This document shows, piece by piece, positions 3,010 to 10,733 of a stretch of DNA of 34,897 nucleotides. The notes beneath the pieces are model-generated. The model was not told the origin of the DNA. It worked only from the letters and a program-made list of their open reading frames with translations, and made no database searches. The DNA is taken from positions 1 through 34,897 of the forward strand of contig BQJQ01000007.1 of assembly GCA_021604785.1 (NCBI GenBank), in the 5' to 3' direction. The first letter of the stretch is position 1, and each line of letters starts with the position of its first letter. Made by a program: the position numbers and the translations under genes. Source of the DNA: Phycisphaeraceae bacterium (GTDB taxonomy: Bacteria > Planctomycetota > Phycisphaerae > Phycisphaerales > UBA1924).

Positions 3010-3417
3010 ATGCGAGATCTGCCGCTGCCAGACGAGGAAGACGCCCGCCTGATGCGCCGGGTGCGCCGGCGGGCGGAGCGGGGGGAGGCGGTCTCGCCCG
3101 ACGCCGCGGTACGGATCGCGTGGGTGTGTGCGCGCCGCTGGGGGGATCCTGACGCTGCGGACCGGCTGGCTGCGTGCCTGGGCGATGCCCTCGATGTGGA
3201 CGGTGCCCGGGCGTTGGTCCGGACGGTCCGCGCGGCGGACCTGGCGAGCTCGACCCCCGCCGGGACGAGCGCGGAGTTTGTGTGGCGGCACCCCGAGCTG
3301 ATGGACGGGGGCAACGACGATGATGAACTGAGTGCGGACCCGGCGCCGGTGGCGGAGACCGCCGGGCTGGGGTCGCGGCTTGTGCGCGCGTTGCGGATGG
3401 GTCGGCGGTCAGGGTGA
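3010..3417 (+). CDS. Small hypothetical protein
   Basis: A 135-residue protein starting MRDLPLPDEEDARLM, not recognised. It is rich in Arg, Ala and Asp, with a mostly helical first 100 residues and an acidic patch (DGGNDDDE) before a basic tail. There is no signal peptide and no membrane segment. GGAGG lies 4 bases before the ATG, the same close spacing seen at 10890 and 28225. The gene diverges from the sigma factor, leaving 122 bases for promoters, and its last nine bases overlap the convergent phosphoesterase gene. Amino-acid composition is believable, unlike the shadow frames here, but without a known relative the call is moderate. Confidence 0.55.
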   Translation: MRDLPLPDEEDARLMRRVRRRAERGEAVSPDAAVRIAWVCARRWGDPDAADRLAACLGDALDVDGARALVRTVRAADLASSTPAGTSAEFVWRHPELMDGGNDDDELSADPAPVAETAGLGSRLVRALRMGRRSG

Positions 3418-5424
3418 GACGAGGTGCGCGTCGCCGCGGAGGCGTGCGGGGATGCCCGCGCCCGAGCCGTCGATGAGCGTGCGCCCGAGCCTGCCGTCCA
3501 TGTTGTAGAGGGCGGCGGTGTCGGGGTCCGGGGCGAGGCGCCGGGCGGGGGTGAAGCGGTCGCCGGCATAGAGCGCGCTGCGCGAGATGCGGACCGCGTC
3601 GATCATTCCGTTGAAGTGGCTCATGCCGTCGCCCGCGTTGGAGACGTCGGCCCCGATCAGCATGGGCAGCGTGTTGGTGCGGCGCTGGCCCGTGGCGGGG
3701 GTGGTGGCGAGGCGCTCGCCGTCGAGGTAGAGGCGAAGCTCGGCGCCGTCGTACACGCCGGCGATGTGGTGCCACGCGTCGGTGTCCAAGGCGAAGCCGC
3801 TCTCTGCCGAGGCGGTGGCGTATCGGTCCCCGAGGAAGACGGAGAATTGGGGGCGGCCGTTCGAGAGGAAGATGCCGTAGTCGGAGTTCTCGGTTTTGGT
3901 GAGCAGCCCGACGCGGCGGGCGTAGGCGTCCGCCTTGAACCAGCACTCGACGGTGAGGGGGCCGTCGGGGACGTTGAGCACGGCGCTCGCGACTTCGAGG
4001 TAGCCGGTGCGGCCGTCGAGGTGGAGCACCCGCTCGCCGAGGGGGACGGGCGGCGCGTGCAAGCGCAGGTCCGCGGCGATGGGCGTCGAGGTGGGCGGGA
4101 TCGGGTAGCGGAAGGCATCGGTGAGCAGCTCGGCGTGGGCCGCGATCGTCAGCTCGTCGTAGGTGCCTGGCAACGGGCCGGCTTCGCGGCCGACGGTGAA
4201 GTCGAACGTGCGCGATTCGCCCGGGGCGAGCGTGGCGTGCGCGTGGTCGGGCAGCGCGTACCACCGCTGATCAGCACTCTCGGGCACCAAAGAGAACTCA
4301 ACACGGAAGTTGGACGGGTTCGAGACGGTTGCCTGGACGTGCGCCAGGGTTGAGCCGTCGTGGGCGACGCGGGCCTCGCCGGCGACGGTGGGTGGGGTGC
4401 GCGCGAGGGCGGCGGCGCCGGCGGTCAGCTCCTCGGTCATCTCCCGCGGGTCCATCGCGGCGCCGACGGGATAGGCCGCCGTCGCGATCTGGTTCTTGCG
4501 GACCGTGACGATGTTGTACTGGTGCAGCCACCCGGCGCTGGGGACCTTGCCGGGCTGGTGCCCGCCGACGGTGGCGAGGGCGAAGTACTCGATGCCGTCG
4601 TCTTGCTGGTACTTCATCTCGTGGATGTGCCCGGCGAAGACGGCCGAGACGTTGCCCGCCTCGACGAGGGCGTCGTGCACGCGGTCCCAGTCGTCGCCGT
4701 AATTGCGTTTGCGCCAGCGGGGGTGGTGGATGAAGACGAAGACGTGGTCCGCGTCCGACGCGCGCGCCAGCACGGACTCGAGCCACCCGAGCTGCTCGTC
4801 GCTCATCTTCTGCGCGACGGGCAGGTTGAAGTTTTTCACGCCCGTCTCGGGGTCGCCCTCGTCGGAGTAGAGCGAGATGAACCAGCAGTTCTTGTGCTCG
4901 AAGGCGTACCAGAGCGGGCCGAAGTGGAGCTCGTAGCTCTTCTCGTGCTCGCCGGCGGGCTTGTCGGGGTCGTTCGACGGGCGCCAGTAGACGTCGTGGT
5001 TGCCCGCGACGGGGAACCACGGGCAGAGCAGCCCGTCCATGATGCCCTTGAACTCGCGCATCTCGTCCATCCACTCGGGCGTCTTGTTGTACCCCTGGAT
5101 CATGTCGCCGACGGTCATGACCAGGTCGGGCTCGAGGAGGTTGGTGTCGCGGACGGCGTCCTTGAGCACCGCGATGCCCTCGTCGGGCCCGCCGGTACGG
5201 TCGCCGAAGACGACGAAGAAGAACGCGTCCTCCTCGCCGGGCAGCGGGAGGACGACGGGGCTCTGCCGGTTGGTGGTGAACCGGTCGGCGTCGGGAGCCG
5301 CGGGGTGGGGCGGGTTGTGCGGGTGCTCGTGGCGGGTGTGCGCGTGGTCCTCCCAGTGGGGGGGCTCGGCGGGCGCGGGCGCCGCGAGGGCGAAGAGGAT
5401 CAACGCGAGGGCGGTGGGTCGCAT
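3409..5424 (-). CDS. Secreted calcineurin-like metallophosphoesterase with LamG-type domain
   Basis: A 671-residue exported protein. Seen: signal peptide (1 to about 19, MRPTALALILFALAAPAPA), a histidine-rich stretch at 23-40, then a calcineurin-fold domain with the metal motifs GDRTGG (74-79), GDM (107), GNHD (141-144), HH (233-234) and GHIH (265-268). A beta-rich middle leads to a LamG/concanavalin-like domain (about 490-635: LTVECWFKAD, WHHIAGVYDG, LYLDGE, IDAVRISR). The family hydrolyses phosphomono- or diesters with two metal ions; the substrate here is unknown, and the LamG domain suggests carbohydrate or surface binding. The frame is open from 5487, but the ATG at 5424 follows GGAGGAG by 8 bases and begins the signal peptide. 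The 3' end overlaps the convergent small gene. Confidence 0.93.
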   Translation of the reverse strand: MRPTALALILFALAAPAPAEPPHWEDHAHTRHEHPHNPPHPAAPDADRFTTNRQSPVVLPLPGEEDAFFFVVFGDRTGGPDEGIAVLKDAVRDTNLLEPDLVMTVGDMIQGYNKTPEWMDEMREFKGIMDGLLCPWFPVAGNHDVYWRPSNDPDKPAGEHEKSYELHFGPLWYAFEHKNCWFISLYSDEGDPETGVKNFNLPVAQKMSDEQLGWLESVLARASDADHVFVFIHHPRWRKRNYGDDWDRVHDALVEAGNVSAVFAGHIHEMKYQQDDGIEYFALATVGGHQPGKVPSAGWLHQYNIVTVRKNQIATAAYPVGAAMDPREMTEELTAGAAALARTPPTVAGEARVAHDGSTLAHVQATVSNPSNFRVEFSLVPESADQRWYALPDHAHATLAPGESRTFDFTVGREAGPLPGTYDELTIAAHAELLTDAFRYPIPPTSTPIAADLRLHAPPVPLGERVLHLDGRTGYLEVASAVLNVPDGPLTVECWFKADAYARRVGLLTKTENSDYGIFLSNGRPQFSVFLGDRYATASAESGFALDTDAWHHIAGVYDGAELRLYLDGERLATTPATGQRRTNTLPMLIGADVSNAGDGMSHFNGMIDAVRISRSALYAGDRFTPARRLAPDPDTAALYNMDGRLGRTLIDGSGAGIPARLRGDAHLVSP

Positions 5425-5458
5425 GGGGCGGCTCTCCTCCGGATCTCGGACCGGGGCG

Positions 5459-5487
5459 ACCTTCGCACGCCCGGGCTCGTGTGTCAA
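5459..5487 (-). promoter_or_regulatory. Possible promoter of the metallophosphoesterase gene
   Basis: On the minus strand a perfect TTGACA lies at 5487-5482, 58 bases before the ATG at 5424. The hexamer 17 bases further on is GAAGGT, a poor -10. The -35 match is exact, but the pair is weak as a whole. Confidence 0.3.
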
Positions 5488-5526
5488 TGGGTGAGGGGCC
5501 GGGCGAGGGCATTCTGAACACGGCGC

Positions 5527-5556
5527 AAAAAAACAGCGGGGCGAAACGCCCCGCTG
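5527..5556 (-). terminator. Intrinsic terminator of the astacin gene pair
   Basis: Read on the minus strand, a perfect 10-bp stem (5556-5547 with 5543-5534) has a 3-base loop and is followed by seven T (5533-5527). It lies 28 bases after the stop of the pseudo-astacin gene, so it should end that transcript before the next minus-strand gene at 5424. Confidence 0.9.
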
Positions 5557-5583
5557 CGGTGAGGTCAGGATGACGCCGAGCGA

Positions 5584-6978
5584 TCAGCCCGGTCCGGTGC
5601 CAACGACCGGGCGGTCGGCGGGCGGCTTGGGCTTGCCGGGCACGGCGCAGAAGCCCGGGCTCCACGCGGCGTAGAAGATCTGGAAGTCGTTGTTGGTCCA
5701 CAGGCCGTCGCGGTTGAGGTCGGCGAAGATCGACTGCGAGTTGAGCATGCCCAAGAACTGCGTGAGGTCGGCGACGGTCATTTTGCCGTCCCCGTTCACG
5801 TCGGCGGGGCACCCGGAGGTGGGGTCGAAGATCCACGGCACCGGGTCGCCCGGGTAGCCGTAGAGCTCGAAGAGGGTGTTGATGTCGCCGCGGCTGTACC
5901 CGGCGCCCTTGCCGATCGAGAACTCGAGTTCATCGATCAGGTCGTCGTTGAAGTCGGGGTCGAGCGGATCGAGGGCCGGGTTGAGTGTCACGAGGTTATC
6001 GACGACGTCCGGGTTGTCGAAGAGCCACTCGAGGGCCGGGCCCCGCTTGAGCCGGATGGTGTTGAGCCCGTTGAAGGAGGACTGGAGCTCCTGGAAGTGC
6101 ATGATGGAGCCGTAGTCGTAGGTCCCGACGAGCGAGCCGCCGGTGAACTGCTTCTCGAACTCGAAGAGCCCGATCCCGCCGTTGATCTCGGGCGGGCCGA
6201 CGTTCTGCTCGAACACGGTGATGTACGAGTCGCGGTCCGGGCGCTGGTGCTCGCGGAGCAGGCCCATGACGCCGCCGAGCTGGCCGACGATCGATGCGAA
6301 ATCGGACCACGTGCAGTGGTTGAACAGCTGGCCGTCAGGGTTGGCCTGGTACCCGAAGGTGCTGACATTGAAGCACGTGTTCAGCGGGCCGTTGACCTCG
6401 ATCAGCACGTTCCCCTGCCCGGCGTGGAGGGCCTCGTCGTACGCGAGGTACGTCACGCGACCCTGGGTGACCGCGTTCACGTACAGGAACACGAAGGCCG
6501 AGTTCGGGATGACCGAGAGTGCGTTGAGGTCGTCCGCGTCGGGGTCGTCCGGCGGGTTCAGGAAGATGCCGATGATGTCGTCGGAGTAGTTGTACAGCAC
6601 CTCGCCGCGCGGCCACAGGGCGAGCGTCGCGAAGCCCTTGAGCATCGAGGGCTCGGGGTAGATGATGCTGCCGGCGGCGTGCGCGGGGCGCACCCCAACC
6701 CCCGGCCAGTTGCTCATCGGCTGAACCGTGGGGTTGAGCACGGGGTCAAACCCGCGGGTGTCGATATCCGAGAACGTCGCGAGGCGGGCGAGTGACTCGA
6801 GCGTCCACCCCGCGTCGAGCAGCTCGGGCGGGAGGATCGAGTCGTCCAGCCCGGGGCGGACTTCTTCCACAGCTGTGACCCCGACGCCCTGCCATTGCCG
6901 CGCGGGCGCCGCCCACGCGGATGTTCCAAGGACAGTGAGGGCCCCCACGGCCAGTACTCGGTGCGTCATGCGATCCAT
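5584..6978 (-). CDS. Astacin-like (M12A) protein with destroyed zinc site, dockerin-like C-terminus
   Basis: A 464-residue secreted protein: signal peptide (about 1-24), a linker to about 120, an astacin-like domain (about 120-375), then a dockerin-like double calcium repeat (CPADVNGDG, DLNRDG; about 388-442) and a Pro-rich tail. Where astacins have HExxHxxGxxHExxRxDRD this protein reads GQLGGVMGLLREHQRPDRD (232-250): the three zinc His are Gly232, Gly236 and Arg242 and the catalytic Glu is Gln233. The Met-turn SIMH is kept (291-294), but the Tyr ligand is Phe295. The fold markers survive without a frameshift or stop, which points to a maintained pseudoenzyme rather than a decaying gene. AGGAG lies 9 bases before the ATG at 6978. 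It lies 69 bases downstream of the intact astacin gene, probably co-transcribed. Role unknown; a binding or inhibitory partner is an inference. Confidence 0.9.
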   Translation of the reverse strand: MDRMTHRVLAVGALTVLGTSAWAAPARQWQGVGVTAVEEVRPGLDDSILPPELLDAGWTLESLARLATFSDIDTRGFDPVLNPTVQPMSNWPGVGVRPAHAAGSIIYPEPSMLKGFATLALWPRGEVLYNYSDDIIGIFLNPPDDPDADDLNALSVIPNSAFVFLYVNAVTQGRVTYLAYDEALHAGQGNVLIEVNGPLNTCFNVSTFGYQANPDGQLFNHCTWSDFASIVGQLGGVMGLLREHQRPDRDSYITVFEQNVGPPEINGGIGLFEFEKQFTGGSLVGTYDYGSIMHFQELQSSFNGLNTIRLKRGPALEWLFDNPDVVDNLVTLNPALDPLDPDFNDDLIDELEFSIGKGAGYSRGDINTLFELYGYPGDPVPWIFDPTSGCPADVNGDGKMTVADLTQFLGMLNSQSIFADLNRDGLWTNNDFQIFYAAWSPGFCAVPGKPKPPADRPVVGTGPG

Positions 6979-7047
6979 GTCAGTGCGCTCCTGTGAACTC
7001 TGCGTGCAGATCCCGAATGCGGGCTCGGCGTGTGTGGGCGTGTGGAA

Positions 7048-8922
7048 TCAGAACGGGTCGGTGACGGGCCCGAACGCCGGCTTCACGGGAAGCTGCGGCG
7101 GGGGGGCGTAGCAGTCGCGACCGGCGAAGGCGTCGAGGAAGTCAATGAAGTCGCCGATGTCCACCACACCGTCGGTGTTGATGTCGGCGCGGAAGTTGTT
7201 GGCGATGAAGAGGGTGATGAAGAGCTGCCAGTCGTCGAGGTCGACGTCGAAATCGCCGTCGAGGTCTTCGGGGCACTCGGGCTCGCCGTAGAGCTGGCGG
7301 AGCCCGGCGGCGTCGCCCTTGCTGATGCCCTGGGCCGCACCGATGACGTCGCCGAAGCGGGCCTCGAACTGGTCCACGACGCGGATGGTGACACCGCCGT
7401 TGCCCGAGAACGCGAACGGCCCGTAATGCATGATTGACTCGAAGTCAAAATCGCCGAACTCGTTGCCTGGGGCCGATTTCGCAAACTGGCCCAGCTGGCC
7501 CGGGGCGACGTTCTGCTCGAGGATCTCGATGAAGTCATCCCGGTCGTTGCGCTGGTGCTCGTGGTAGAACCCGATCGCGTGCATGATCTCGTGGATGATC
7601 ACGCCCTGCGATGCGGCGGGGTTATCCGCCACGTTCGGGTGCAGGATGATCAGGTTGGTGAACGGCGAGATCTCGATGCCCTCGAGCTCGTCGCCGTTGG
7701 GGTTGCCGTCGTCGTCGGTGAACCCTTCGACCGGGGTCGGGAAGGCGCCGGGGTCGTCGTCGCCGTTGAGGTCGTCGATGCCGGCGGTATCAAGCACGGG
7801 GTTGCTGCCCGCGAACCGACGATCGATGAACGGACGCGGCTCCCAGTCGACCCACATCACGCCGGGGGTCATGTCGTCGCCGAGCTCGGCGGCGACGCCG
7901 TCGTTGTCGATGTCATCGACATCGAGAATCGGCAATCGCCCTTCCGGGATGCTCGGGTGTGCCGCGGGATCCCACCCGGGGAGCACGACAAACCCCCCCA
8001 TGCCGTCGTCGGGGATCTCTTCCTCGTCAAGCAGCTGGTAGAAGTAGGGGACGAACGAGATCGGGTCGGTCAGCACGGACGCCGTGATCAGGCCCTCGGA
8101 CCCATCGGTCGGCCCGATCATGCACAGCGGCGCGACGGTCATGCCGACCGAGGTCGAGAAACTCGCCCCGTCGCCGTCGAGGAAATCGTCGGACGAGAAC
8201 GGGAGCTCGGCCTCGGCGCCCGTCGCGTACAGGAGCAGCGGCGTGCCGCGCGGGAACGCGTCGGTCTGCTCGGCCGGGTCGGCCTCGACGAAGTCGATGT
8301 TGGTCACCACGGAGATGATGTTCATCGCCTCGATGATGATCGCTTCGGCCTCATCCGAGACTTCCATGCCATCGAACGGGAACCCGGGGAAGGGCGGGTC
8401 CGAGTTGTCGATGGGCGGGATCACGTCCGGGTCCATCGGATCCTCGAACCAGATTTCCTTGGTGACCCGGTAGGGGATCACGATGTTCGTGCCCGGGTAG
8501 ATGTTGGGCGTGACATCGGTGCCCGGCACGAGGACGGTCGCGTCATCCACCCAGAGGCTGAAGGGCTCGTACGTCCGGTTGCCGGCCGCGAGCACCTCGC
8601 CGTTGAGCTGCACGTCCCACGGCACCGCGAAGTTCAGGCCCCCGAGGCCCTCGTTGATGTTCGATTTCAGGGCCGAGTCCTGCCCAAACGCCCGGCTGCG
8701 GAGGCGCTCGATGCGGGGCATCGTGCCGCAGTTGATCGCGCCGGCGGTGTACCCGCCCTTGCCCTCTTTGGTGGTGTCACCCTCGGTCACGGGGAACGCC
8801 TTCATGGGCACGCCGATCGCGATGCGGCTGCCGGCTTGCCCCGCGTTGGGAGCACCCAACGCGACCGAAGCCCCAGCAGCAACCAAAAGACCGGCGGCAG
8901 TGATGTGCGTTGTGTTCAGCAT
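7048..8922 (-). CDS. Secreted astacin-like (M12A) zinc metallopeptidase with dockerin-like C-terminus
   Basis: A 624-residue exported protease. Seen: signal peptide (about 1-23), a beta-rich N-terminal part with astacin-like features (WVDDATVLVPG, IPYRV at about 125-153), a long acidic segment (about 240-415) with several Asp/Asn-rich calcium-type loops such as DIDNDG and DLNGDDD, then HEIMHAIGFYHEHQRNDRD (444-462) with zinc ligands His444, His448 and His454 and catalytic Glu445. SIMHY follows with Tyr500. The C-terminal part carries dockerin-like calcium repeats (CPEDLDGDFD, DINTDG). The acidic insert before the active site is unusual for astacins. AAGGAAG precedes the ATG at 8922. It is followed by the degenerate paralog and a shared terminator. 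Confidence 0.92.
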   Translation of the reverse strand: MLNTTHITAAGLLVAAGASVALGAPNAGQAGSRIAIGVPMKAFPVTEGDTTKEGKGGYTAGAINCGTMPRIERLRSRAFGQDSALKSNINEGLGGLNFAVPWDVQLNGEVLAAGNRTYEPFSLWVDDATVLVPGTDVTPNIYPGTNIVIPYRVTKEIWFEDPMDPDVIPPIDNSDPPFPGFPFDGMEVSDEAEAIIIEAMNIISVVTNIDFVEADPAEQTDAFPRGTPLLLYATGAEAELPFSSDDFLDGDGASFSTSVGMTVAPLCMIGPTDGSEGLITASVLTDPISFVPYFYQLLDEEEIPDDGMGGFVVLPGWDPAAHPSIPEGRLPILDVDDIDNDGVAAELGDDMTPGVMWVDWEPRPFIDRRFAGSNPVLDTAGIDDLNGDDDPGAFPTPVEGFTDDDGNPNGDELEGIEISPFTNLIILHPNVADNPAASQGVIIHEIMHAIGFYHEHQRNDRDDFIEILEQNVAPGQLGQFAKSAPGNEFGDFDFESIMHYGPFAFSGNGGVTIRVVDQFEARFGDVIGAAQGISKGDAAGLRQLYGEPECPEDLDGDFDVDLDDWQLFITLFIANNFRADINTDGVVDIGDFIDFLDAFAGRDCYAPPPQLPVKPAFGPVTDPF

Positions 8923-9275
8923 CCAGCTACTTCCTTACTTTGACCGTGCACGGGGTACCACTCGTGCGGCTCGGGGCGATCTACAGGGGGTGGGCTCATG
9001 GGCGAACCCGCTCCGTGTCTCCTGGTTCTCACGCGGGCGTCGAGTTCGGGTTCCCGGGCTCCTCAGGAGTATACCGGGTCGCTGCTCGCGGCCGCGTCCG
9101 TATGCGTTTCGCCGGGCGTCCCCAGCGGTGTGCAAGGGTTGTGTTCGGTTGGGGGTCCGACACGCCTCGCGTTCGCTGCTTTCCTATTCCACCCGAACGC
9201 CCGCGCGGTTGCCCCCATCCGGGGACAATCCCTCATTTTGACAACCGATCCAGATCGGAATAATTCCAAGATATG
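8923..9275. other. 353-base intergenic region between fumarase and astacin genes
   Basis: No believable gene: the short open frames here have shadow-like composition. On the minus strand a good -10-like TATACT lies at 9073-9068, which would give a leader of roughly 140 bases for the astacin gene; no -35 is recognisable at 16-18 bases. The right end (9236-9275) is AT-rich and palindromic and is listed separately. Confidence 0.5.
9238..9267. promoter_or_regulatory. AT-rich double palindrome with a perfect TTGACA
   Basis: Plus strand: TTGACA at 9238-9243, then the inverted repeat CCGATC-CA-GATCGG (9245-9258), directly overlapping a second one, GGAAT-A-ATTCC (9257-9267). It begins just after the fumarase stop. 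It could be a weak fumarase terminator (no T-run of length), an operator, or a plus-strand promoter antisense to fumarase (TAATTC stands 17 bases from the TTGACA). Confidence 0.4.
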
Positions 9276-10733
9276 TCACGCCTGTGGGCGGGTCATCCCG
9301 CTCGGGTCGAGCAATCGGGCCAGTTCTGCTTCGGGCACCAGTTTCTGCTCGAGCGCAAGTGCCCGCACCGTCTTGCCTTCGCGGAATGCCTGATACGCCA
9401 GCTTCGCCGACGCGTCGTACCCGATCACGGGCACCAGGCTCGTGCACATCGCCAAAGACCCCTCGATCAGCTCGGCACACCGGTCCCGGTCGGGCTCGAG
9501 CCCGTCGAGCAATTTGTCCTGGAACACGGTGCACGACTCGGCGAGCAGCCCGATCGAGCTGATGAGGTTCGCCCCCATCATGGGCATCGCGACGTTCAGG
9601 TCGAGGAGCGACCCGACGCCGCCCATCCCGCCCGCGGCGATCGCGGCGTCGTTCCCGATCACCTGGCACGCCGCCATCATCACGGCTTCGCACATTACCG
9701 GGTTCACCTTGCCGGGCATGATCGACGACCCGGGCTGCACCGCGGGCAGCTTGAGCTCGCCGATGCCGCACCGGGGCCCGGACCCGAGCCACCGGATGTC
9801 GTTGGCGATCTTCGACAGACTCACCGCGATCGTGCGCAGGTGCCCGGACGCCTCGACGACGGCGTCCTTGGCGTGCTGGGCCTCGAAGTGGTTGACGGCT
9901 TCGCGGAAGTGCACCCCGGTCGCCTCGGTCAGCGACGCCGCGACCTTGGCGCCGAACTCCGGGTGCGTGTTGATCCCGGTGCCGACGGCGGTGCCCCCGA
10001 TCGCCAACTCGCCAAGCGTGTGCAGGGCACGGTGCAGGCGCTCTTTCGCGTGGGTCATCTGGGCCGCGTACCCCGAGAATTCCTGCCCCAAACGGATCGG
10101 CGTTGCGTCCTGCAGGTGCGTGCGCCCGATCTTGACGACCTTGTCCCACGCCTGCGCCTTCGCGTTCAGGCCCTGTTCCAGACGCTCGATCGCCGGGAGT
10201 AGGCGCTCCTTGATCGCGATCGCCGCGGCGACGTGCATCGCGGTGGGGAAGGTGTCGTTGGACGACTGGCCCATGTTGACGTGGTCGTTGGGATGCACGC
10301 CCCCGGCGTCGAGGTAGGCGCTGTCCTTGCTCGACCCGATCGGCGCGCCGCGCTCCAGGCAGACGAGGTTCGCGATGACCTCGTTCGCGTTCATGTTGGT
10401 CGAGGTGCCGCTGCCGGTCTGGAAGATGTCGATGGGGAAATTGCGGGCGATGCCGCCGTGCGCGTCCAGCCCGCGGAGGATGGCCCGGCAGGCGCCGTCG
10501 ATGAGTTCGCACCGGTCGCCGTCGAGCTTGTCCAGCGAGGCGTTCACCTCGGCGCACGCCGCCTTGAGCCGGGCGTACGCGAAGATGATCTCGGCGGGCA
10601 CGGGCGTGCCCGAGATCGGGAAGTTGAGCACCGCCCGCTGCGTAGAGGCGCCGTACAGGACGCCCGCGGGGACCTCCATCTCGCCCATCGAGTCCTTCTC
10701 GGTCCGGGTGTCGGCGTGGTCTGTCGCGGTCAT
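9276..10733 (-). CDS. fumC: Class II fumarate hydratase
   Basis: Fumarase catalyses reversible hydration of fumarate to malate in the TCA cycle, as a cytoplasmic homotetramer. The 485-residue length is slightly above the usual 460-470. Seen: TGSGTSTNMNANEV (107-120), the HPNDHVNMGQSSND region (146-159), GRTHLQDATPIRLGQE and the superfamily signature GSSIMPGKVNP, whose flexible loop carries the catalytic Ser. The pattern fits fumarase rather than aspartase or argininosuccinate lyase. The ATG at 10733 follows GAGGAG by 6 bases. The first 15 residues are an extra charged extension. The gene is alone, divergent from the transglutaminase-like gene, with a TACCAT -10-like hexamer at 10779-10774 on its strand. 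Confidence 0.97.
   Translation of the reverse strand: MTATDHADTRTEKDSMGEMEVPAGVLYGASTQRAVLNFPISGTPVPAEIIFAYARLKAACAEVNASLDKLDGDRCELIDGACRAILRGLDAHGGIARNFPIDIFQTGSGTSTNMNANEVIANLVCLERGAPIGSSKDSAYLDAGGVHPNDHVNMGQSSNDTFPTAMHVAAAIAIKERLLPAIERLEQGLNAKAQAWDKVVKIGRTHLQDATPIRLGQEFSGYAAQMTHAKERLHRALHTLGELAIGGTAVGTGINTHPEFGAKVAASLTEATGVHFREAVNHFEAQHAKDAVVEASGHLRTIAVSLSKIANDIRWLGSGPRCGIGELKLPAVQPGSSIMPGKVNPVMCEAVMMAACQVIGNDAAIAAGGMGGVGSLLDLNVAMPMMGANLISSIGLLAESCTVFQDKLLDGLEPDRDRCAELIEGSLAMCTSLVPVIGYDASAKLAYQAFREGKTVRALALEQKLVPEAELARLLDPSGMTRPQA

Follow-up and report, generated by a model that had tools for sequence, protein, structure and literature searches.

An astacin homologue without zinc ligands, encoded beside an intact astacin, is a probable retained pseudoprotease in Phycisphaerales

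Results

The window, meaning the whole stretch of DNA analysed, comprises 34,897 nucleotides from a metagenome-derived Phycisphaeraceae genome of 273 contigs. Three genes follow each other on its minus strand: fumC, encoding a class II fumarase (9276-10733), gene A, encoding an intact, dockerin-tailed astacin of 624 aa (7048-8922), and gene B, encoding an astacin homologue of 464 aa (5584-6978). No terminator was found in the 69-bp spacer between A and B (6979-7047, minus strand), and an intrinsic terminator with an 11-bp stem and a T run was located directly 3' of B (5557-5533, minus strand). Based on this terminator-free gap and the terminator after B, A-B looks like one bicistronic unit, and its two genes are probably co-expressed. 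Terminator-like sequences were also found downstream of B in two related genomes, G001 and G055. Conventional sigma-70 promoters were not detected in positions 5300-9400. The gene directly after A-B (3409-5487, minus strand) encodes a fusion of a calcineurin-like phosphoesterase with a Laminin_G_3 (concanavalin-like) domain.

Gene A has every astacin active-site residue, with the zinc-binding motif HEIMHAIGFYHEHQRNDRD (7537-7593, minus strand) and the Met-turn SIMHY (7423-7437, minus strand), and it is the intact neighbour that the preliminary description had placed 69 bases upstream of B in the same likely transcript. Its product has a signal-like N-terminal segment and a GC-type dockerin over the NF041540 cut-off. 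An open frame of 1616 aa related to A, with an intact astacin motif, was found in another genome (G022, L114); in it, acidic NGNGxLDxGED repeats resembling dockerins follow one another over a long stretch.

In B, the position of HExxHxxGxxH is taken by residues 232-250 (bases 6285-6229, minus strand), which read GQLGGVMGLLREHQRPDRD and follow the residues ASIV. This former active-site helix contains neither a His ligand nor the catalytic Glu: the three zinc-binding histidines are replaced by G232, G236 and R242 and the catalytic glutamate by Q233, while the Met-turn, SIMHF (6094-6108, minus strand), has F295 in place of Tyr. Translation of the open reading frame thus agreed with the preliminary description on the coordinates and on all five replacements. 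Two features remain, namely Met293 of the Met-turn and E243, the Glu that is specific to the family and comes after the third His position.

B matched the Pfam Astacin family (PF01400) with an E-value of 5.7e-11, and its alignment to HExxHxxGxxH is therefore not by chance. AlphaFold2 with an alignment of 66 sequences gave pLDDT values of 87-97 across most of the astacin domain (residues about 116-377; 5848-6633, minus strand), and a helix at the old active site (227-237) was present within this range. With VIA-align the model was superimposed on the BMP1 protease 3edh over 194 residues at 1.9 A (Z 22.4), and on BMP1, TLL1, meprin and crayfish astacin domains generally with Z 21-22; the more divergent B of genus g55, modelled in the same way, gave Z 17.0 with BMP1 protease, all these models being built from alignments rich in true astacins. 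A profile made from six B sequences retrieved astacin-family proteins only from the PDB sequences, with a best E-value of 1.8e-12. B was thus confirmed, at the level of predicted structure, as the astacin-fold (M12A) homologue that the preliminary description had taken it for. Membership in the NCBIfam family LegP was rejected, the score of 45 bits being far below the family cut-off of 300. B also carries a signal-like N-terminal segment, with secretion predicted, and a C-terminal GC-type dockerin (5656-5814, minus strand; NF041540, 34.9 bits with a cut-off of 29 bits).

The preliminary description had proposed to look for the pair in related Phycisphaerae. Among 163 genomes of the family, a full-length B was found in six: the window genome and its congener G001 (genus g1), G039 (genus g39), and G055, G192 and G193 (genus g55). 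A seventh genome, G150, had a truncated B C-terminus at a contig end, 83% identical to that of G039 over 64 aa. The relatives are all metagenome-assembled or draft genomes. In 6/6 genomes B follows A on one strand across a gap of 28-100 bp. The pair occupies two chromosomal sites that are unrelated to each other: the order fumC-A-B is common to the window genome, G001 and G039, and in g55 the pair is flanked by a sigma-factor gene and a gene resembling PutA, not by fumC. Plasmids and viruses were searched for B and nothing was found.

The state of the active site differed among these genomes. B of G001 is 59-64% identical to that of the window and has the motif NGFASTLGMLDEHTRPDRD and the Met-turn SVTHF, with all ligands lost and both Met and Tyr gone. 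Within g1 the ligand and catalytic positions differ, reading G,Q,G,R in the window and N,G,S,D in G001, where G stands for the catalytic glutamate. In G039 both A and B are intact (B: HELGHSIGLFHEHQRPNRD/SVMHY), and since this intact B stands at the fumC locus, the loss of B happened within g1. In g55 the motif of B is lost in 3/3 genomes, where RSxGFVLGLDW brings in the new residues R-S-F-W and the Met-turn reads SIMLL or SMMLI. All five B copies with a lost motif have frames free of stops and frameshifts. A is intact in the window genome, G001, G039 and G193. Its motif is lost in G055 (YQLMRHLGFLNEH, Met-turn SVMHF) and G192 (YTLMGQLSLADEH, Met-turn SATHG), and no further astacin was found in these two genomes, which are 88% and 74% complete. 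In the A proteins of g55 (L071, L072, L073) an extra segment of about 200 aa separates the zinc motif from the Met-turn, and in two of the three it weakly resembles a Reelin subrepeat.

Astacin domains were detected in 37/163 genomes of the family (Phycisphaerales f1) and 52/400 genomes of the order. The other astacins examined in family and order, in a survey covering all but a few copies (e.g. G129:C46), retained HExxH and the third His. According to the astacin review PMC9848320, bacterial astacins are scattered and occur mostly in animal-associated hosts. A conserved astacin subfamily in other planctomycetes (L146, L148, L155, L173; HALMHVLGFWHEHQRPDRD) has HAxxH for HExxH and MHF for MHY, so that the zinc ligands are retained and the catalytic Glu and Met-turn Tyr are gone.

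The B sequences from the six genomes formed one clade against other astacins of the family (support 99/98), and as the tree leaves this clade unrooted it cannot decide whether g1 and g55 share one loss. In a tree of fumC and rpoB, g39 grouped with g1, g18 and g59 (75/90), and the topology uniting g1 and g55 without g39 was rejected (AU p 0.0099). Trees of the active-site core likewise united g39 and g1 for A (95/95) and B (91/89). A single loss common to g1 and g55 was rejected on these grounds. If inheritance was vertical, the motif of B was lost at least twice and that of A once, before G055 and G192 diverged from each other. The other possibility is transfer.

Codon models for the window and G001 gave B an omega of 0.076, with values of 0.060 for A and 0.032 for fumC. 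These figures are rough, because the B pairs have reached saturation in dS and third positions are 90% GC. Omega = 1 was rejected for B (2dlnL 223) and for its astacin domain alone (2dlnL 124), and B evolved somewhat faster than A. The NG86 estimate of dN/dS was about 0.5; we discounted it because the GC-rich third positions are saturated, and because maximum likelihood and an unsaturated pair of subtilases (see below) agree on strong constraint. With its catalytic residues gone and purifying selection acting on it, B fits the definition of a pseudopeptidase at the level of sequence. The proposal in the preliminary description that B is kept for a non-proteolytic role gained support from the ligand-less ortholog in G001, the low omega and the confidently predicted fold, and from the sequences it appears well supported that B is kept without astacin chemistry.

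Conservation along the protein differed between the genera. In g1 the old active-site helix of B was conserved at 48%, below the protein average of 59%, as compared to 87% for the helix of A, where the average was 64%. Based on this, the catalytic positions of B in g1 look released and drifting. In g55 the altered helix was the best conserved stretch of B (87% as compared to 42%), with 3/517 windows along the sequence as high. Here the catalytic positions look reused, which suggests that binding may take place in what was once the substrate cleft. The idea in the preliminary description that the losses themselves had been selected was not supported in that form, given the below-average helix in g1 and new residues that are conserved in g55 only.

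In g18, g59 and G151 fumC is followed instead by a dockerin-tailed subtilase (S8) with a P-domain. Genus g39 shows both arrangements, with the astacin pair after fumC in one species and the subtilase in another. Apart from the A-B pair itself, the nearest relatives of the B C-terminus came almost entirely from this group of subtilases, ahead of many other dockerins. In ten g59 species the slot subtilase lacks the catalytic His, the Ser and also the oxyanion Asn; the residues in their place vary, and the reading frames are long and open (L260, L261, L262, L271, L275, L276, L279, L280, L281 and L283, all beside fumC). These sequences form one clade (100/100). For one close pair of these dead copies, G059-G174, dS was 0.28, which is unsaturated, dN was 0.049 and omega 0.17, and omega = 1 was rejected (2dlnL 177), in line with continued purifying selection. 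Even those subtilases of the group that retain His, Asn and Ser have Glu at the catalytic Asp position, e.g. VGVIEAG (L257-L259, L263-L270, L272-L274, L277, L278, L282, L285, L286).

Discussion

Pseudoproteases are best known from animals, where they include ADAMs and iRhoms. To our knowledge, few bacterial pseudoproteases have a traceable history. No description of a bacterial pseudo-astacin was found in the open-access literature searched, an absence that is weak evidence, and no inactive bacterial astacin was met in a word search of the review PMC9848320. Pseudopeptidases as such are already known, with ADAMs and bacterial M16B pairs as examples in PMC11266112.

B resembles the M12A astacins (BMP1/TLL1, crayfish astacin, bacterial myroilysin and flavastacin) in its predicted fold, the Met-turn Met, the Glu after the third His, the RPDRD segment and the conserved cysteine pair C202 and C222, but it has none of the three His ligands, the catalytic Glu or the Met-turn Tyr. 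A parallel in motif is found in the pseudopeptidase ADAMs (M12B; ADAM2, 11, 22 and 23), which like B have a metzincin scaffold with the ligands and general base replaced and the Met-turn Met kept, as tabulated in PMC11266112. These ADAMs are secreted or surface-bound and have binding roles, properties that in B are predicted. They are, however, animal proteins that bear disintegrin domains and are not paired in an operon, whereas B is bacterial, belongs to the astacin branch and is dockerin-tailed. As for the anchor, both A and B score over the cut-off for GC-type dockerin-anchored proteins (NF041540), a match that names the anchor only, such tails being common here.

We consider it probable that B is a genuine pseudoprotease, dockerin-tailed and predicted to be displayed on the surface, which selection has kept for a non-catalytic binding or structural job. 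What was computed for B comprises the astacin fold, the ligand loss, the orthologs, purifying selection, the tandem with A, the anchor type and the slot. From there we infer that B is secreted, anchored at the surface and co-expressed with A, and that it serves in binding or scaffolding. A and B would be made from one transcript and would sit on the same cell surface, where the astacin scaffold of B, with no catalytic zinc bound, may bind a ligand or a surface protein. Cutting by A would be useful yet dispensable, since in two g55 species both copies have lost their motifs with frames open. Where A is alive, B may also regulate it.

A different role, which we regard as possible but rather unlikely, would make B an obligate subunit of active A without catalysis of its own, or a regulator of A, with B binding A or presenting its substrate in the manner of alpha-MPP and beta-MPP. 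The tight tandem in six genomes at two unrelated sites is consistent with such a role, as are the GC-type dockerins on both proteins, although dockerins are very common in these genomes and a common anchor alone says little about pairing. There is also a two-gene precedent in MPP and the bacterial M16B pairs, in which an active beta and an inactive alpha homologue stand side by side (PMC11266112). The fold in that system differs, however, and a complex of A and B is hypothetical. As A has also lost its motif in G055 and G192, and no further astacin was found in these two incomplete genomes, regulating an active A cannot be the sole role of B in g55, and in G039 both copies are intact. The preliminary description's suggestion that B serves the active enzyme as partner, decoy or regulator is thereby weakened, and may hold where A is alive.

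That B has exchanged its chemistry, so that the old cleft now holds a different metal site or carries out a different reaction, is very unlikely. The new conserved R-S-F-W of g55 would agree with it, but the corresponding positions are not conserved in g1 and the site is left without a His, Asp or Glu cluster. Still less probable is a decaying duplicate, a pseudogene in progress, to which the drift of the ligand positions between the two congeners and the somewhat faster evolution of B than of A might point. Five copies with lost motifs but without a stop or frameshift, the rejection of omega = 1 for the whole protein and for the astacin domain, and the conservation of the altered helix in g55 argue against it, and simple decay was ruled out by the codon models and the persistence of B. 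The preliminary description had linked decay to intact motifs in relatives together with dN/dS near 1; an intact B was indeed found at the locus, in G039, but omega was far below 1. A sequencing or assembly artefact, conceivable in a metagenome-derived genome of many contigs, is hardly credible, as the same loss was found at the same locus in an independent assembly of a second species and three more in another genus, with the motif in frame and its flanks conserved.

The dead subtilases give the strongest independent support for a non-proteolytic function of the slot. Judged by their sequences, two unrelated protease folds in one predicted surface slot are each independently turned into a putative retained pseudoprotease. 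As an unrelated fold behaves likewise beside fumC, the conserved job of this slot is likely binding or display, not proteolysis. More tentatively, and as a proposal whose chances we put at somewhat under even, a Phycisphaerales clade may have a surface-protein slot directly after fumC with a constant kind of dockerin tail, in which the protease module is swapped between subtilase and astacin, repeatedly emptied of catalysis and kept under selection. On this view, protease folds would have been taken up to act as surface receptors or scaffolds, and a changed active-site cleft could turn into a new conserved binding site, as with R-S-F-W in g55.

The small tandem locus offers a graded natural series, with both copies alive in G039, one dead in the window genome, G001 and G193, and both dead in G055 and G192. 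The same fumC slot adds the parallel death of an unrelated protease, the subtilase. Together the series and the slot allow a direct test of when a protease is kept for binding and not for cutting.
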